This document shows positions 7,171 through 41,171 of a DNA stretch of 64,000 bases, one piece after another; the stretch's first letter is position 1, and every line of letters starts with the position of its first letter. Below the pieces are notes generated by a model that was given only the letters and a program-made list of their open reading frames with translations, was not told the origin of the DNA and made no database searches. A program made the translations under genes and the position numbers. Source of the DNA: Arthrobacter silviterrae (GTDB taxonomy: Bacteria > Actinomycetota > Actinomycetes > Actinomycetales > Micrococcaceae); NCBI RefSeq assembly GCF_011045165.1, contig NZ_JAAKZI010000003.1:62001-126000 (forward strand), written 5' to 3'.

Positions 7171-7384
7171 GCACGTTAGTTCCTCAACGTGTGTCAGCGA
7201 CCTCCATTGTTCGGGGGTGTGGGTGCCCCCATGTGGGCCTGACATTTGCTCAGCGGAACGCCAGCGTTGGGCCGTCCCTGACGGCTCCGCGGGTGTCAAT
7301 CGCCGCCTCCAAGAAAACTTGTCCTGCCGCCGGGTGCACCATTGCCCGCGACGCGCGGGGCGACCCATCGCCAAGGATCAGCAA
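7171..7384 (+). promoter_or_regulatory. Long structured 5' leader of metF
   Basis: No gene is supported in this 214-base stretch. It contains a six-pair stem CACGTT/AACGTG (7172-7177 with 7186-7191), a six-pair stem TGTCAG/CTGACA (7192-7197 with 7239-7244) and, inside it, a five-pair GGGGG/CCCCC hairpin (7213-7217 with 7226-7230). Methionine genes in actinobacteria are often controlled by RNA leaders, so a regulatory RNA is plausible. I cannot find the conserved core of SAM-I, SAM-IV or cobalamin riboswitches here. A ribosome site AAGGA is at 7373-7377. Confidence 0.45.
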
Positions 7385-8353
7385 ATGTCCCCACCCAGAC
7401 CCCTGCAGCCGACCCCGCTTTCCGGGGGAGCGGCGCCCACCGCGCTTTCCTATGAATTGTTTCCGCCACGCAACGAGACGGCATCTGCCTCCCTGTGGGC
7501 CACCATCCGCGAGCTGGAAACCACCAATCCCGACTACGTCTCCGTCACCTACGGGGCCAGCGGCAGCAACCGCGACACGGCCGTGGAACTGCTCCACCGA
7601 CTGCTGTCCGAAACCACCCTGCGCCCCCTGGCCCACCTGACTTGCGTAGGCAACACGGCGGAGGAACTGGCCGGAATCATCTCCGAGCTGCTGGACCACG
7701 GGGTGCGCGGCATCCTGGCCCTGCGTGGGGATCTCCCCAAGGACGCATCCGGTGCGCCGAAACGGGGATCGCTCACATACGCGCAGGACCTGATTGAACT
7801 GGTCCGCCGCGTGGAACAGCGCCGCTCGGCCCTGCTGTGCGCGGGCAGGGTGGCCATTGGTGTGGCCGCCTACCCGGCCAAGCACCCCGAATCACCGTCC
7901 ATAGAGCACGATGTGGAAGTGCTCCTGGCCAAGCAGCGTTCCGGCGCCGACTTCGCCATCACCCAGGTGTTCTTCCATGCGGACCAATACAAGTCCCTCG
8001 TGGCACGGGCACGCAGGGCCGGGGTCAGCATCCCCATCATCCCCGGCGTCATGCCGCTGACCAGCCTGCGGCGCGTGCAGCGCCTGGGCGAGCTGACCGG
8101 CGTCGAGCCCGCCCCTGCCCTGCTGGACGCCCTGGGGCGCGCGGACGACTCCGCCGCCTCGCGCCGCATCGGCGTGGCAGCCACGGTGGACCTGGCCCGT
8201 GCGGCGCTGGACGCCGGGGCACCCGGAATCCACCTGTACACCTTCAACGAACACGCCGCCGCGCTGGAGGTCCTGGACAAGCTGCAGCTGCTGCGTCCCG
8301 GACGGCCCGCCGTGGCCCGGCGTACGCCGTCCCCCCAACTTGTGCAGGCCTAG
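7385..8353 (+). CDS. metF: 5,10-methylenetetrahydrofolate reductase
   Basis: A 322-residue flavoprotein that reduces 5,10-methylene-THF to 5-methyl-THF, the methyl donor used by the MetE encoded next. Family marks are SYELFPPRNE near residues 22-30 (Glu24 is the probable catalytic acid), the SVTYGASGSNR loop at about 55-65, LRGDLPKD near 114-121, and ITQVFFHADQY in the flavin/folate pocket. The ATG at 7385 has AAGGA seven bases upstream, and the family's N-terminal beta strand begins just after it. It is 54 bases upstream of metE on the same strand, so the two are probably cotranscribed under the leader described above. Confidence 0.93.
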   Translation: MSPPRPLQPTPLSGGAAPTALSYELFPPRNETASASLWATIRELETTNPDYVSVTYGASGSNRDTAVELLHRLLSETTLRPLAHLTCVGNTAEELAGIISELLDHGVRGILALRGDLPKDASGAPKRGSLTYAQDLIELVRRVEQRRSALLCAGRVAIGVAAYPAKHPESPSIEHDVEVLLAKQRSGADFAITQVFFHADQYKSLVARARRAGVSIPIIPGVMPLTSLRRVQRLGELTGVEPAPALLDALGRADDSAASRRIGVAATVDLARAALDAGAPGIHLYTFNEHAAALEVLDKLQLLRPGRPAVARRTPSPQLVQA

Positions 8354-8407
8354 GCTCCGGCCTGGTCATTGCAACCACTCTTCAAGAAACAAACCCTAAG
8401 GAATCCC

Positions 8408-10723
8408 ATGTCGAACACCCCCGCATTCCCCGCAGCATCCCTCCTTGGCTACCCGCGCATCGGCCGCCGCCGCGAACTGAAGAAGGCCGTTGAATCCTTC
8501 TGGGCCGGCCGCATTGACGAGGCCGCCCTGGACGCCGCAGCGAAGGAAATCCAGCTTGGCACCGCCCGCCGCCTGGTGGAACTTGGCCTCACCGACGCCG
8601 CAGCGGTCCCTGGCACGTTTTCCTACTATGACCAGGTGCTGGATGCCATTACCCACCTCGGAGCTGAACCGGCCCGCTTCGGTGCGCTGCGCAACGCCGC
8701 CGGTGAATTGGACCTCAACGCTTACTTCACCCTGGCCCGCGGCTCCGCCGAGGTGCAGCCGCTGGAAATGACCAAGTGGTTTGACACCAACTACCACTAC
8801 CTGGTGCCTGAAATTGGGCCGGAAACCAACTTCGCCGCCACCTCCAACCGCATTGTGGAGCAGTTTGAATATGCCCTGGCCAACGGTGTTGAAACGCGCC
8901 CCTATCTGGTGGGCCCGGTCACGTTCCTGCTGCTGAGCAAGGCCTCCGACGACGCGCCGGCCGGCTTCAACCCGCTCTCCCGCCTCGAGGACGTGCTGCC
9001 CGTCTACGCGGAACTGCTTTCACGCCTGGCCGCCGCAGGTGCCACCTGGATCCAGCTGGACGAGCCGGCGCTTGTTGCCGACCAGGACATTCCCACGGCC
9101 GAACTCCAAGCCGCCGTGGCCCGCAGCTACTCCGTGCTCGCGGCCGACGGCGAGCGCCCCGCCATCCTGGTCTCCACGCCGTTTGGCGCCCTCACGGAGC
9201 TGCTGCCGACGCTGGCGCAGGCCCCCATCGAGGCGCTCCACATTGACGCGTTCAAGGGTGCCCTGCCCTCCCCGGCCGAGCTGGCGCTGCTGGCCGGCAA
9301 GACCGTGGTGGCCGGCGTGGTCGACGGGCACAACATCTGGCGCAACGACCTGGCCGCTTCCGCCGCGCGCCTGGACGTTTTGAAGGCTGCCGGCCTGAAC
9401 GTTACAGTCTCCACCTCCACCTCCACCCAGCACGTTCCCCACGACGCTGCCGAGGAAGCCCAGCTTCCCGCGGAACTGCGCAGCTGGCTGGCTTTTGCCG
9501 ACCAGAAGGCCACCGAAGTGGTGACGCTGGCCGCCTACCTGGGGGACCCGGCGTCGTCCGCGTCCGCGATTGCCGAGGCGACTGCCGTCATTGCCTCCCG
9601 GGCCGCAGCTGCCGGCGTCAAGCGCCCCGAGGTGCGTGCCCGGCTGGCCGCATTGACCACGGCGGACTTCAACCGCTCAGCCTACGCAGTCCGCGAGGCG
9701 GCCCAGGAACAGGCACTCCACCTGCCGCCCCTGCCCACCACCACCATCGGCTCCTTCCCCCAGACCAGCGAAATCCGCAGCGCACGGGCCCGGGCCAACA
9801 AGGGTGCCATCACGGGCGAGGAATACTCGCAGCTGATGAAGGACGAAATCAAGCGCGTGGTGGAGTTGCAGGAGGAACTCGATTTTGACGTGCTGGTCCA
9901 CGGCGAGCCCGAGCGCAACGACATGGTCCAGTACTTTGCCGAGAACCTGGAAGGCTTCGACGTCACCGTCCACGGCTGGGTCCAGTCCTATGGCAGCCGC
10001 TGCACCCGCCCCTCCATCCTGTGGGGCGACGTCACCCGGGAGAAGGCCATCACCGTGGAATGGGCCGAATTTGCGCAGTCGCTGACGCAGAAGCCCATGA
10101 AGGGCATGCTGACCGGCCCGGTCACGATCTTGGCCTGGAGCTTTGTCCGCGACGACCAGCCCCTGGGAGACACGGCAAACCAGGTGGCCCTGGCGTTGCG
10201 CGATGAAATTGCCGACCTGGAAGCCGCAGGCATCAAGATCATCCAGGTGGACGAGCCGGCCCTGCGCGAACTGCTGCCTCTGCGCCGTGCCGACCAGCCC
10301 GCCTACCTGGACTGGTCCGTGAATTCGTTCCGCCTTGCCACGGCGGGCGCCGGCGACGGCACGCAGATCCACACCCACCTGTGCTACTCCGAATTCGGCG
10401 TCATCATTGACGCCATCGACGGACTGGATGCCGACGTCACCTCCATCGAGGCCGCGCGCTCCCGCATGGAGGTTGTCAACGACCTGGAAACGCACGGCTT
10501 TGGCCGCGGCGTGGGCCCGGGCGTCTACGACATCCACAGCCCGCGCATCCCCGGCCAGGCCGAGGTGACCGAGCTGCTGGGCACGGCCGTCCAGCACGTG
10601 CCGGCCCGCCAGCTCTGGGTCAACCCCGACTGCGGCCTGAAGACCCGCGGCTACGCCGAGACCGAAGAGTCCCTGCGGAACCTGGTCGCCGCGACCAAGG
10701 AAGTGCGCGCACAGCTCGTGTAG
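8408..10723 (+). CDS. metE: Cobalamin-independent methionine synthase
   Basis: A 771-residue 5-methyltetrahydropteroyltriglutamate-homocysteine methyltransferase, the usual length for MetE with its two related barrels. The N-terminal part begins with the LGYPRIGRRRELKKA motif; the C-terminal catalytic half begins near LPTTTIGSFPQTSEIR and carries the zinc ligands His657 and Cys659 (HLCYSEF) and Cys742 (NPDCGLKTR). The ATG at 8408 has AAGGA five bases upstream. It uses the 5-methyl-THF made by MetF to methylate homocysteine. A strong terminator follows directly. No cobalamin riboswitch was seen upstream. Confidence 0.95.
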   Translation: MSNTPAFPAASLLGYPRIGRRRELKKAVESFWAGRIDEAALDAAAKEIQLGTARRLVELGLTDAAAVPGTFSYYDQVLDAITHLGAEPARFGALRNAAGELDLNAYFTLARGSAEVQPLEMTKWFDTNYHYLVPEIGPETNFAATSNRIVEQFEYALANGVETRPYLVGPVTFLLLSKASDDAPAGFNPLSRLEDVLPVYAELLSRLAAAGATWIQLDEPALVADQDIPTAELQAAVARSYSVLAADGERPAILVSTPFGALTELLPTLAQAPIEALHIDAFKGALPSPAELALLAGKTVVAGVVDGHNIWRNDLAASAARLDVLKAAGLNVTVSTSTSTQHVPHDAAEEAQLPAELRSWLAFADQKATEVVTLAAYLGDPASSASAIAEATAVIASRAAAAGVKRPEVRARLAALTTADFNRSAYAVREAAQEQALHLPPLPTTTIGSFPQTSEIRSARARANKGAITGEEYSQLMKDEIKRVVELQEELDFDVLVHGEPERNDMVQYFAENLEGFDVTVHGWVQSYGSRCTRPSILWGDVTREKAITVEWAEFAQSLTQKPMKGMLTGPVTILAWSFVRDDQPLGDTANQVALALRDEIADLEAAGIKIIQVDEPALRELLPLRRADQPAYLDWSVNSFRLATAGAGDGTQIHTHLCYSEFGVIIDAIDGLDADVTSIEAARSRMEVVNDLETHGFGRGVGPGVYDIHSPRIPGQAEVTELLGTAVQHVPARQLWVNPDCGLKTRGYAETEESLRNLVAATKEVRAQLV

Positions 10724-35980: not shown

Positions 35981-36883
35981 GTGTCTACAAGCGATGTATC
36001 AGCGGTGACTGGCAGCAGCCGGGTCAAGCGTGGAATGGCCGAGATGCTCAAGGGCGGCGTCATCATGGACGTGGTCAACGTTGAGCAGGCCAAGATTGCC
36101 GAGGATGCCGGCGCCGTTGCCGTCATGGCCTTGGAGCGTGTGCCGGCCGACATCCGCGCCCAGGGCGGCGTGTCCCGTGCCAGCGACCCGGACATGATTG
36201 ACGCGATCATTGCCGCTGTGTCCATTCCCGTCATGGCCAAGGCCCGGATCGGCCACTTTGTTGAGGCCCAGGTCCTGGAGTCCCTCGGGGTGGACTACGT
36301 GGACGAGTCCGAGGTCCTGACCCCGGCCGACTACGAGCACCACATCGACAAGTGGAACTTCAAGGTTCCCTTTGTCTGCGGCGCCACCAACCTCGGCGAG
36401 GCGCTGCGCCGCATTAATGAGGGCGCGGCCATGATCCGCTCCAAGGGCGAGGCCGGCACCGGTGACGTCTCCAACGCCACGGGCCACATGCGCAAGATCC
36501 GGGCCCAGATAGCCAAGCTGGCGGCCCTGCCGGAGGACGAGCTGTACGTTGCCGCGAAGGAACTGGCAGCCCCGTATGAGCTGGTGAAGGAAGTTGCCGC
36601 GAGCGGCAAGCTGCCCGTGGTCCTGTTCACCGCCGGCGGCATCGCCACCCCGGCCGACGCCGCCATGATGATGCAGCTCGGCGCCGACGGCGTGTTTGTC
36701 GGCTCCGGCATCTTCAAGTCCGGCAACCCGGCCCAGCGCGCCGCCGCCGTGGTGAAGGCCACCACCTTCTTCGACGACGCCAAGGTCATCGCGGACGTTT
36801 CCCGCGGCCTGGGAGAGGCCATGGTCGGCATCAACGTCGCCGACATCCCCGAGCCGCACCGCCTCGCCGAGCGCGGCTGGTAA
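35981..36883 (+). CDS. pdxS: Pyridoxal 5'-phosphate synthase, lyase subunit
   Basis: A 300-residue PdxS that makes PLP from ribose 5-phosphate, glyceraldehyde 3-phosphate and ammonia supplied by PdxT. The family blocks [37 protein letters not shown], the catalytic Lys regions [11 protein letters not shown] and [10 protein letters not shown], and the phosphate-binding [16 protein letters not shown] are present. The GTG at 35981 has AGAGGGG upstream. Its partner pdxT lies 3.6 kb downstream, beyond two opposite-strand genes. Confidence 0.96.
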
Positions 36884-36958: not shown

Positions 36959-37630
36959 CTAATGGGGCAGGTGGTGCCACCAGGTCTGGCCCTTGCCAAC
37001 GAGCTCAAAGCCGCGCGTCCGGTACAGGCGCTGCCCTTCCGGGGTGGCGTTGAGCAGCAGGTGCTCAGCACCGGCAATGGCGGCCGTCACGGCCAGCCTG
37101 TCCAGGAGTGCCGTGCCCAGGCCTGTGCGCCGGTGGTCCAGCGCGACTTCCATGTCATAGATGCCGGCCAAGTGCTTGCCGCCTTGCTCCGGGGGCATGA
37201 AGGCATATGCGCGGCCGGCCCATTCGCCGCCCAACCGTGCAGTGGCGAGCCACGCCTGGTTCTCCGCCACGCAGGTGAGAGTGACACGTTCATCCGCAGG
37301 CCCCTCGGCAGGAATTCCCGCGTCCACGGGCGCCGTCATCCACCACGGCTGCCAGCCGCGCTCAAAGCGGTGACGGGGAAGAATGCCCTCGCGAACGGCG
37401 GCATTCAACCAGATTCCCACGGTGGCGGCCCCGCGCCGCCGGGCCTCCGCCATGGCCGGCAGCAAGCCGGATTCGGTGATCTCCGTAGGAAACAGGCACA
37501 GCATTTCCCGGGTTTCCGGCAGCCACACCCATTCCATGCGGTGGGTGGAAAATGACCTCCCGCCCGTTGCCTCCGCCAGGGCCTTGAACCAGGCATGCTG
37601 GGTCCGCTGGCAATCGGCAATCGTGACCAT
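36959..37630 (-). CDS. GNAT-family N-acetyltransferase
   Basis: A 223-residue protein with a C-terminal GNAT domain: MEVALDHRRTGLGTALLDRL gives the acetyl-CoA loop (R-R-x-G-x-G-x-A variant R-R-T-G-L-G-T-A) at about residues 160-178, and NATPEGQRLYRTRGFELVG closes the fold. The first 110 residues, rich in Trp and Arg, form an extra N-terminal half that could be a degenerate second GNAT unit. The ATG at 37630 is 25 bases after the asnB stop on the same strand, so both are probably cotranscribed. The substrate is unknown. Confidence 0.78.
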   Translation of the reverse strand: MVTIADCQRTQHAWFKALAEATGGRSFSTHRMEWVWLPETREMLCLFPTEITESGLLPAMAEARRRGAATVGIWLNAAVREGILPRHRFERGWQPWWMTAPVDAGIPAEGPADERVTLTCVAENQAWLATARLGGEWAGRAYAFMPPEQGGKHLAGIYDMEVALDHRRTGLGTALLDRLAVTAAIAGAEHLLLNATPEGQRLYRTRGFELVGKGQTWWHHLPH

Positions 37631-37655: not shown

Positions 37656-40340
37656 CTACTTTTGGGTGAAGACCAGGGACATGGGCGTGGTCTCCGTGGT
37701 CTGGCCCTGCGGGTTGTCGCGGAAGATGTTTTCCAGGGTTTCCTTGCCCAGCTTGGTGTCGTGTCCCAGGGCCACCACGCCAAGGTCGTTGGCATCCATG
37801 ATGGCAGTGCCGGCAAACGTCTTGGCGTACTCGGCCGGTACGCTCTCCCTGACGAGCCTGCTCAGGCGGGAGGCGACGCCGTCGGGGTCAAGCGGGGCGT
37901 ACTTCACCGAGTGGGTGGAGGTCCCCACCTGGTAGCCGGCAGCGCCGTCGATCGCGTTGATGTTGTGGCCCACCACCTCATAGAACACGCCGGACTTGCC
38001 CTGCAGCTTGCCGATGACGCTGCGTGCGGACGCGTACATGATGCGCGGCAGCCCCACCTCGTCGATGGCCAATTGCATGGACCAGGGGCTGGCCAGGCCG
38101 ATTCCCCCGGGGTTGCGGGTGACGAACTTGGAGAAGAAGCGTGCTGCGCCGGAAACCTTGATGTCCCAGACCGGGATGGAGCGGCCCTGGGTCATGGCCA
38201 CGATCTTTTCCGAGAGGAACAGGTACCACGGGGTGTCTGCGGTGGCGGTGCCGTGGTCGCCGCCGGCTTCCGGCAGCCCGTCAAAGAAGCGCTTCACATA
38301 GCTCACGACGGCGGGGTCGAAGTCGGTTTCCTTGTAGAAGACTTCGGTACGCAGCGGATAGCGCCGGAAGGTGCCGGCTGCGCCGGGCAGCACGATGTCG
38401 AGCTGCTTGTCGGCATTGGGGATGTAGTCGCTCTTGCCCACGATGCCGGCGAGGACGGGCGGCTCGTCAAAGAACTCGCGCAGCCACAGCTCGGTGTTGA
38501 TCAGGCGCCAGAACACCATGGTGGAGCCGGCGCTCTTGCCGCTGAGGTACTCCTCAAAGGCGTAGATGACGTGGTCCTGGTTCCAGTACGGGCGGGAGCC
38601 GAAGGAAGAGGAAAGGAAGATCTCATAAATCTTTTCCTTCATGAGCGAGAACCACTCGGCTTCGGGTGTGGTGAAGCCGATCTTGTTGCGGCGGTTGCTG
38701 ATCATCTCCGGCAGAAGTTCGCGGGTGGCATCGCGCAGGATCCGCTTGTTCCAGCCGCCCTTGATGATGGACTCGTCGTCCAGGCTGAAGAGGAACTTCA
38801 CCACTTCCTTGTCCAGGAACGGCACGCGGCCCTCCAGGGAGAAGCGCATGGTGTTCTTGTCCTCGTAGCGCAGCACGGCCGGCAGTGACTTGTGGAAGAG
38901 GTCGTCGATGAGGCGCAGTTTGAGGTTGTCCGGGATGTTGGAGAATTTCTCGGCCTTGTGGGCGGCGACAAACTTTTTGTCCAGCAGCGGGGCAATGCCG
39001 GCGTCCTTCTTGAACGTCAGCATGCCCTGGATGCGGAAGCGGGCCAGGCGCAGCAGGATGTCCGCGCTGGAGGCGAGCTCCTTGGCCAGCTTGGCATTCG
39101 CACCGCTCTTCTTCAGCTGGCGCAGGTAGGCGAAGTAGTAGGGGATGTAGCCGGCCATCATTTCGTCGGCGCCCTGGCCGTCCAGCAGCACTGTCACGTG
39201 CTTGGAGGCTTCACGCATCACCTGGTACTGGGCGTACGGCCCGGAGGAGATGATGGGCTCCTCCATGGTGCGCACAAAGTCCTCCAGGTCAGCCACGAAC
39301 TCGGAGGCCTGCGGGCGGATCTTGTGGCTGGTGACATTGCCTTCGCAACGGGCCAGGACGGCGTCGGCGTACTTTTCCTCATCGTTGATGGAGTTGGGGA
39401 AAATGGCGGAGAACGTCTGCTGCTTGGCGCCGAGGGAATCAGTGGCGGCCGCGTTTTCCTGCATGAGCTTGTTGATGGTGGCCACCACGGCTGACGAGTC
39501 CAGGCCTCCGGAGAGGGCCGTTCCAACAGGGACCTCGGACTGCAGGCGCAGGCGCACGCCCTCGGTGAAGCGCTGGCGGTACTCCTCAATGACGGCCGGC
39601 GAGTACGGGGTCTCAATCTTGGCGAGCTCCGACAGTTCCTCCTTCAGCCGGGTGTAGGGGCTGACGGTGATGGTGCCGGCCGGTCCTGCTTCGGTGTCCA
39701 CCGTGCTGAGCACCAGCTTTTCGCCGGGCATGAGCTTGTGGATGCCGGCAAAGAATGTCTCGGCTTCCTCGTCGTGGATCCGGAACTGCAGGTAGCGGAA
39801 TAGAATCCGCTCATTGACTGCGGCATCGATCTTCCCGGCAGCCAGCAGGGGCTTGATTTCCGAGCCGAACAGCAGCGCGGGGGCTTCGGGCGTGCCGGCG
39901 GTGGCGTAGTAGAGGGGCTTGATGCCAAAGTGGTCGCGGGCCAGGACCAGCCGGTTGTTCTTCCGGTCGTGGATGGCGAAGCCAAACATGCCGTTGAACT
40001 TGTCGAACGCGGCGTCTCCCCATTCCTCGTACGCCTGCAGCACCACTTCGGTGTCCGACTTGGTGGAGAAGGAGCGCCCCAGGGCCTCGAGCTCGGCCCG
40101 CAGGTCAAGGTAGTTGTACACCTCGCCGTTGTAGACCAGCACGGTTTCGCCGTCGGCGCTGAACATGGGTTCCTGGCCGTGGGCCACGTCAATGATGGAA
40201 AGCCGGCGGTGGGCCAGTCCCACGTTGCCGTTGGCGTAGATGCCCTCGCCATCGGGGCCGCGGTGCTCAATGCACGCATTCATGGCATGCAGGAGGGTTT
40301 CGTCTTCCCCATAACCGTAGTAACCGGCGATTCCGCACAT
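37656..40340 (-). CDS. asnB: Asparagine synthetase (glutamine-hydrolysing) fused to a F420-0:gamma-glutamyl ligase-like domain
   Basis: An 894-residue protein, about 250 residues longer than AsnB. Residues 1-215 are the Ntn glutaminase with Cys2 (MCGIAGYYG), HRRLSIID and VYNGEVYN; residues 230-620 are the synthetase with the PP-loop SGGLDSS near 276-282. From about residue 637 (genomic 37656-38432) a further domain follows: LSEKIVAMTQGRSIPVWD, NPGGIGLASPWSMQLAIDE, GVFYEVVGHNINAIDGA, YAPLDPDGVA and IMDANDLGVVALG. These blocks resemble the COG1478-like group of F420-0:gamma-glutamyl ligases. The ATG at 40340 is fixed by Cys2. The C-terminal activity is unproven; ligation of Glu or a related amine is an inference. 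Confidence 0.85.
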   Translation of the reverse strand: MCGIAGYYGYGEDETLLHAMNACIEHRGPDGEGIYANGNVGLAHRRLSIIDVAHGQEPMFSADGETVLVYNGEVYNYLDLRAELEALGRSFSTKSDTEVVLQAYEEWGDAAFDKFNGMFGFAIHDRKNNRLVLARDHFGIKPLYYATAGTPEAPALLFGSEIKPLLAAGKIDAAVNERILFRYLQFRIHDEEAETFFAGIHKLMPGEKLVLSTVDTEAGPAGTITVSPYTRLKEELSELAKIETPYSPAVIEEYRQRFTEGVRLRLQSEVPVGTALSGGLDSSAVVATINKLMQENAAATDSLGAKQQTFSAIFPNSINDEEKYADAVLARCEGNVTSHKIRPQASEFVADLEDFVRTMEEPIISSGPYAQYQVMREASKHVTVLLDGQGADEMMAGYIPYYFAYLRQLKKSGANAKLAKELASSADILLRLARFRIQGMLTFKKDAGIAPLLDKKFVAAHKAEKFSNIPDNLKLRLIDDLFHKSLPAVLRYEDKNTMRFSLEGRVPFLDKEVVKFLFSLDDESIIKGGWNKRILRDATRELLPEMISNRRNKIGFTTPEAEWFSLMKEKIYEIFLSSSFGSRPYWNQDHVIYAFEEYLSGKSAGSTMVFWRLINTELWLREFFDEPPVLAGIVGKSDYIPNADKQLDIVLPGAAGTFRRYPLRTEVFYKETDFDPAVVSYVKRFFDGLPEAGGDHGTATADTPWYLFLSEKIVAMTQGRSIPVWDIKVSGAARFFSKFVTRNPGGIGLASPWSMQLAIDEVGLPRIMYASARSVIGKLQGKSGVFYEVVGHNINAIDGAAGYQVGTSTHSVKYAPLDPDGVASRLSRLVRESVPAEYAKTFAGTAIMDANDLGVVALGHDTKLGKETLENIFRDNPQGQTTETTPMSLVFTQK

Positions 40341-40460: not shown

Positions 40461-40475
40461 TATGATGGAAAAGTG
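40461..40475 (+). promoter_or_regulatory. Predicted -10 element for a leaderless pdxT mRNA
   Basis: TATGAT at 40461-40466 lies six bases before the pdxT GTG at 40473, the spacing expected between a -10 and a transcription start. No Shine-Dalgarno sequence precedes the GTG. A convincing -35 is not seen. Confidence 0.4.
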
Positions 40476-41171
40476 ACTCTCACCGACTTAACCCAGGCAA
40501 TTTCCACCACCCGCACCCAGCCCCTGATCGGCATTTTGGCCCTCCAGGGCGATGTCCGCGAGCACGCCCGCGCCATTGAGGCCTGCGGGGCCAGGGTGGT
40601 GGGGGTCCGGCGCCCCGGCGAGCTGGCGGACCTGGACGGGCTGGTGCTTCCCGGAGGTGAATCCACCACCATCGACAAGCTCACCAGGATTTTTGGCCTG
40701 CGCGAGCCGCTGGTGGAGCGCATCCACGGAGGGCTGCCGGTGTATGGCAGCTGCGCCGGCATGATCCTGCTGGCCAACGACATTGCAGACCCGGCGCGCG
40801 ACATGGACGGGAATCCGCAGCAGACACTGGGCGGCCTGGACATCACGGTGCGGCGCAACGCCTTTGGCCGGCAGGTGGACTCCTTTGAAACGGAGCTGCA
40901 ATTCAGCGCCCTGGCACGCGCCGGCGAAGCGGACGAACCAGTCCACGCCGTGTTCATCCGGGCACCCTGGGTGGAACGGGTGGGGGGCGCCGTGGAAGTG
41001 CTTGCCAGCGTGGAACTGCCCCCGGATGGACAAAACGCTAGGATTGAACCAGAAGTCCGTGCGGTAGCCGTTCGTTCGCAGCACTTGCTGGCCACCTCCT
41101 TCCATCCGGAAGTGACGGGTGAGCGCCGCATCCACGAACTTTTTATTCGAATGATTAGAGGAGAAGCGTAA
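40473..41171 (+). CDS. pdxT: Pyridoxal 5'-phosphate synthase, glutaminase subunit
   Basis: A 232-residue class I glutaminase that feeds ammonia to PdxS. The oxyanion and nucleophile motifs are [12 protein letters not shown] and [11 protein letters not shown] (Cys94), and the His/Glu dyad is in [15 protein letters not shown]. The [16 protein letters not shown] start of the domain is 17 residues in, so the protein has a short N-terminal extension from the GTG at 40473. It runs into yebC with only two bases between stop and start. Confidence 0.95.

Follow-up and report, generated by a model that had tools for sequence, protein, structure and literature searches.

A fused asparagine synthetase and CofE-like domain in Arthrobacter silviterrae, with a tentative role in modifying peptidoglycan precursors

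The window analysed here is a 64,000-nucleotide stretch of the Arthrobacter silviterrae genome (NCBI RefSeq assembly GCF_011045165.1, contig NZ_JAAKZI010000003.1, positions 62,001 to 126,000), and the gene in question joins an AsnB-type asparagine synthetase to a domain resembling CofE, the F420-0:gamma-glutamyl ligase (Table 1). A first-pass annotation of the same DNA had described an open frame of 894 codons, with an intact AsnB followed by a separate CofE-like domain. The frame, on the minus strand, and the sequence blocks quoted from it are present, and the frame can be taken as real rather than a product of chance, since the C-terminal 264 residues, used as a query, find the domain in 63 of 295 genomes of the family (Micrococcaceae), 61 of them with the match in a frame of 889-1237 aa. 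The N-terminal part matches GATase_7 (3.8e-45), GATase_6 and Asn_synthase (1.6e-63, residues 254-621) in Pfam, and scores 419 bits against a cut-off of 267 with the NCBIfam asparagine synthase model TIGR01536, the only match over that cut-off in the genome. Residue 2 is a cysteine, the glutaminase nucleophile, and SGGLDSS begins at residue 277; the description of an intact AsnB stands. In PHROGs, phrog_16728, whose function is not stated, spans residues 1-624, and there are two further weak matches. The Pfam family F420_ligase reaches residues 707-834 only below threshold (E 0.09; 12.7 bits, cut-off 25).

Table 1 Features of the fused gene and its neighbours in the window
Feature	Coordinates	Strand	Basis or remark
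Fused asnB-cofE-like gene	37656..40340	-	Single open frame, 894 codons/aa
AsnB-type amidotransferase region, residues 1-625 (GATase_7 + Asn_synthase)	38466..40340	-	Pfam, NCBIfam
Cys2	40335..40337	-	Sequence
PP-loop SGGLDSS, residues 277-283	39492..39512	-	Sequence
AsnB C-terminal tail, residues 561-625	38466..38660	-	Retained even with AsnB core lost
CofE-like domain, residues 637-894	37659..38432	-	Fold and alignment
SEKIVAMTQGR block; E711, K712, G719, R720 invariant in A4	38181..38213	-	Alignment
IDG block; D798 invariant in A4, opposite Asp of CofE VDASN	37944..37952	-	Alignment
MDANDLG block; D849, N851, D852, G854 invariant in A4	37779..37799	-	Alignment
GNAT acetyltransferase, downstream of fusion	36959..37630	-	Pfam
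pdxT (SNO), divergent neighbour	40473..41171	+	SNO match
pdxS (SOR_SNZ)	35981..36883	+	SOR_SNZ match

The CofE fold of the C-terminal domain is well supported, its structural match being clear (2PHN/7ULD), and the domain is indeed separate from AsnB and has retained its motif residues. The domain alone finds no match in a sequence search of the PDB; a profile (A1) gives four weak, unrelated matches, and a wider profile (A3) finds only CofE, at E 0.005. Alignment A4, which comprises 21 rows with the window protein included, has 26 invariant columns. When CofE rows are added, G719-R720 fall on the EGR of CofE and D849 on the Asp of SDS/TDTN, while K712 lies opposite a Lys in the actinobacterial CofE rows but opposite a Thr in that of A. 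fulgidus. The CofE counterparts of D798 and D849 are the two aspartates that bind metal ions. Only 143 columns can be aligned with CofE, and the FGR-WR stretch that follows the second Asp in CofE is replaced by ND-L/I-G. In a tree of 54 rows, the six CofE rows split off with support of 100/100 on a branch of 3.35, and the CofE-like domain is an Actinomycetota clade distinct from the CofE F420 ligases.

The distribution of the domain was followed through genomes of Actinomycetota, and near relatives were sought in all bacterial and archaeal contigs. The frames of the two remaining family matches, both in genus g15, are 564 and 588 aa long; AsnB within the long frames was confirmed at the loci inspected individually, the others being long enough to hold it. 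A sample of the order has the domain in 37 of 297 genomes, with 27 frames of 809-1016 aa (families f1, f11 and f17), nine of 236-330 aa (f19) and one of 496 aa (G565); in f19 the domain also stands alone, as a protein of about 230-240 aa. In G565 (L060:5976-8722) the AsnB frame ends at 8144 and the ligase frame runs from 7235 to 8722 in a different, overlapping frame, either because the gene is split or through a sequencing error. In samples of the class and phylum, 17 of 394 genomes match at a threshold of 1e-3 and 24 of 396 at one of 1e-10. Fused copies occur there in families f36, f68 and f121 (L086, L159, L160, L189), which takes the fusion beyond Micrococcaceae, the family to which it might have been confined; at L163 a separate asnB is followed three bases later by a cofE-like gene, and some copies are free-standing or, as judged by eye, joined to TPR-like repeats. 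Such repeats lie N-terminal to the CofE-like domain at L197, L202 and L203, with MurJ near L197 and L203. The contig search gave 28 loci from named genomes, mostly Arthrobacter and its kin; L006 is a contig filed as Sporosarcina beigongshangi whose domain is 89% identical and Arthrobacter-like, and contamination is likely. No match was found among 72,556 plasmid records queried with one f19 relative.

Its AsnB partner has a history of its own. A tree places the AsnB parts of 14 fusions, together with the separate AsnB of L163, in one clade (100/100) with eight unfused AsnB outside it, subject to a long-branch warning among the unfused sequences and to four (L096, L107, L111, L112) having been cut without a found start motif. 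All eight unfused AsnB examined lack the C-terminal extension, which is not shared by all ordinary AsnB. A table of 36 loci, less L163 and L060 in which AsnB is not in the same frame, leaves 34 proteins, and in nine of these (L034, L035, L061, L063-L066, L068, L070) the AsnB core is decayed or missing: the SGG(L/I)DS pattern is gone, and Cys2 is either replaced by Ser or cannot be located. With a model built from Micrococcaceae fusions, the AsnB part scores 40-516 bits in the nine and 536-1310 in the others, although by score alone the best-scoring decayed protein cannot be told from the worst-scoring intact one. The cofE-like part of the nine still scores 324-369 bits. Identity to the window protein in the nine is 10-42% in the core, 31-51% in the AsnB tail and 43-53% in the ligase; the corresponding values for core and ligase are 55-60% and 43-47% in intact f11 proteins, and 42-45% and 34-36% in L086, L159 and L189. 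Along well-supported branches of the ligase tree, at least three changes between intact and decayed AsnB are forced.

A survey of 64 genomes with TIGR01536 (E up to 1e-30) can be set beside this. Six genomes with decayed copies (G124, G044, G304, G321, G443, G456) have no AsnB at 1e-30; in G550, G434 and G479 the match is the fusion's own remnant only (170.8, 120.4 and 270.6 bits), and in G352 the fusion frame is unmatched and two other AsnB are present. In Micrococcaceae, nine of 11 genomes with the fusion have no second match, and 13 of 14 genomes without it have no AsnB at all at this threshold. AsnB and the ligase form an old Actinomycetota partnership in which the ligase is the durable part. 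Since the ligase is kept where the core is lost, amidation by the same protein is not required for ligase function in those lineages, and this weakens the two-step ligase suggested in the first-pass annotation, if that is read as a single, obligatory enzyme. The earlier interpretation was half right: the intact AsnB, the CofE-like domain and a probable substrate other than F420 hold up; the gamma-glutamyl attachment is conjecture, the obligatory two-step enzyme is weakened, and the fusion is not confined to Micrococcaceae.

Two decayed copies (L034, where the protein lies at 7942-9468, and L035) come from Micrococcus luteus and its near relative. The catalase of genome G124 shows zero differences over 502 aligned residues from PDB 1GWE, the catalase of M. 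luteus (lysodeikticus), and G044 is a near relative of G124; in each of these genomes the alignment with the window protein covers the AsnB tail and the ligase and nothing else. These ligases group with f11 copies (87/81) and not with other Micrococcaceae, and a transfer is possible. Katz et al. are said to have described in 1967 the biochemistry of glycine incorporation in M. lysodeikticus, the addition reportedly being ATP-dependent and tRNA-independent. We know of no gene for this addition of glycine to D-glutamate, and we found no paper in the open-access literature on that gene or on an AsnB-CofE fusion. In M. luteus peptidoglycan, D-glutamate carries glycine (PMC11534333).

Gene neighbourhoods can also give insights into the substrate. 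Upstream of one free-standing relative (L192) are a transglycosylase and a protein with MurT_C and Mur_ligase_M domains, and the asnB/cofE-like pair of L163 is flanked by SepF and DivIVA. Of the 72 loci with a cofE-like frame, 10 have MurJ no more than 2.1 kb away, in families f38, f82, f90, f93 and f98, five of the calls being made with Pfam and the other five with a model built from those five. The set of 72 leaves out L162, which has no cofE-like frame, and counts L022 and L042 as one locus; MurT was sought with the single L192 protein as probe. One f11 locus has DapB, ThyX and DapA nearby and another an aspartokinase and a semialdehyde dehydrogenase. Pfam identifies ATPgrasp_ST near f19 copies at L054 and L067, a neighbour seen in f19 only that may point to polysaccharides, and alanine racemase at L093. 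The free-standing f19 gene (L054-L058, L067, L093, L094) mostly begins where a sigma-70 gene (Pfam check in L054) stops, with ATPgrasp_ST after it on the opposite strand and alanine racemase nearby in some.

Taken together, this leads us to a tentative proposal, in which our confidence is a little short of even: that one peptidoglycan precursor is the substrate of both parts, the domain joining an amino acid to a carboxylate of it and AsnB amidating it. The ligase chemistry is suggested by the CofE fold. As in CofE, a nucleoside triphosphate would phosphorylate the carboxylate and the amine of the amino acid would couple to the acyl phosphate. The identity of the precursor, possibly lipid-linked, is suggested by the neighbours of the cousins and the wall of M. 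luteus; its carboxylate might, less surely, be most simply the alpha-carboxyl of D-glutamate. The AsnB-less protein of M. luteus would then be the glycine-adding ligase, and where the fusion is intact, the amide made by AsnB would sit on the added residue or on a further carboxylate of that precursor. The model for such amidation is LtsA/AsnB1, which amidate diaminopimelate (PMC4632607); LtsA acts on lipid intermediates (PMC7920481). The latter source describes LtsA as highly homologous to asparagine synthetases yet not complementing an asparagine auxotroph, a precedent by which a TIGR01536 match does not settle free-asparagine synthesis.

Several observations weigh against this proposal. MurJ is lacking at 62 of the 72 loci, and none of the 26 f1 loci (L022 and L042 again being one) has MurJ or an L192-like MurT nearby; the f1 neighbours, by eye, are pdxT, pdxS, an M3-type peptidase or a GNAT, and those in M. 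luteus are transporter-like genes. The loci with MurJ or MurT hold free-standing cousins, some on long branches. Distant free-standing relatives stand directly before an Orn/Lys/Arg decarboxylase (L199:8653-10823) and a class III aminotransferase (L200:7909-9940), hinting at an amine substrate, so that substrates may differ among cousins. The gene is patchy, with no match in G014, of the M. luteus genus, or in seven f19 genomes. The remnant in L070 (genome G479) stays just above the TIGR01536 cut-off of 267.1 despite its lost Cys2 and PP-loop. We found no wall data for species with the fused gene, and the ligase family could not be shown in Intrasporangium calvum, whose wall has alpha-glycine (PMC3035309).

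Care must also be taken to weigh other functions. That the protein is a strict F420-0:gamma-glutamyl ligase is barely credible, in spite of the shared fold. The best CofH match in its genome scores 30.5 bits against a cut-off of 374.1 (CofG, CofC and CofD were not searched), and at E up to 1 there is no F420_ligase match besides the fused domain. A survey of 39 genomes bearing the clade, at 1e-20, gave no CofH match in 35, one over the cut-off (G743, which bears a fused relative) and three below it in f19, in frames of 839-901 aa; these four, with the shared fold, are what can be said for F420. Relatives score at most 35.8 bits with TIGR01916 (cut-off 180.65), a model to which the window protein gives no match even at E up to 1, and CofE itself falls in a clade of its own. 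Two of the free-standing f19 copies exceed the threshold of F420_ligase, at 45.9 and 56.6 bits. F420 as substrate is thus unlikely, and a different substrate, as the first-pass annotation suggested, is likely. Folate polyglutamylation, in which gamma-glutamate is added to folate, has a precedent in the Chlamydia CofE homologue CT611, which complements an E. coli folC mutant (PMC1971073), and ThyX adjoins the gene in L070; the folate-type model TIGR04132 matches three of nine relatives at 11.7-14.4 bits, far under its cut-off of 350, and does not match the window protein, and we judge this role distinctly improbable. We give little credence, too, to a role without catalysis, in which the domain would serve AsnB as a sensor or scaffold: the short stretch alignable with CofE and the replacement of FGR-WR would fit, but the domain outlasts the AsnB core, exists as a separate protein in f19 and keeps its invariant columns.

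It is more plausible, while still unlikely, that the fusion helps to make a soluble small peptide, much as N-acetylglutaminylglutamine amide is synthesized. AsnB would form asparagine or an amide, the CofE-like domain would couple it to an amino acid, and the GNAT protein would cap the product. All three lie together in the window, and TIGR03104 (N-acetylglutaminylglutamine amidotransferase) gives 329 bits, below its cut-off of 570.1; ordinary asparagine synthesis is also possible, the fusion being the only TIGR01536 match over the cut-off in its genome. Against it stand the loss of the AsnB core beside a kept ligase and the 13 of 14 fusion-free Micrococcaceae genomes in which no AsnB matches at 1e-30. 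As a constant partner GNAT was rejected, since a similar protein was seen by eye only near L001 and L015 among 13 f1 loci. Where the window has GNAT, nine loci (L012, L015, L018, L023, L028, L036, L037, L039, L040) have an M3-like peptidase gene (Pfam check in L028) downstream of the fusion and in its orientation, either directly or, in some, after one intervening gene.

The precursor-ligase proposal can be widened, in a form we consider doubtful, to a new class of peptidoglycan-precursor amino-acid ligases, separate from Mur ligases and Fem transferases. The M. luteus gene would carry out the D-glutamate glycine-adding step, the fused AsnB would amidate the same precursor, and AsnB decay would mark lineages with a non-amidated product. 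The gene is a candidate for the attachment of an amino acid to a cell-wall precursor. Members of this clade are unlikely to serve F420, so that labelling them for F420 on the strength of a Pfam match would mislead. The decay of a fused AsnB beside its preserved partner, which the tree forces at least three times, shows cleanly how one domain can outlive another.

Among known systems, CofE and the N-terminal domain of FbiB (PF01996) are closest to the C-terminal domain in fold, in the (E/Q)GR block and in the two aligned Asp blocks, and the likeness may extend to amide ligation through an acyl phosphate; the differences are the separate clade, scores below the family cut-offs, a genome without CofH over the cut-off and the fused AsnB. 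The N-terminal part shares with AsnB and LtsA/AsnB1 the Cys2 glutaminase, the PP-loop and, by its score, membership of TIGR01536, but it belongs to an AsnB clade, distinct from the eight unfused AsnB compared, that is paired with a CofE-like domain and decays in several lineages. LtsA is also marked by a conserved C-terminal proline, P559. CT611 (FolC2) is likewise related to CofE and comes from organisms that, by prediction, do not produce F420; it differs in its folate role, assigned by complementation. MurT/GatD come near through the MurT-like gene adjoining one relative (L192) and through their target, the D-glutamate alpha-carboxyl (PMC3266927). They differ in that a homologue of Mur ligases is partnered there by a glutamine amidotransferase, and in amidating without adding an amino acid.
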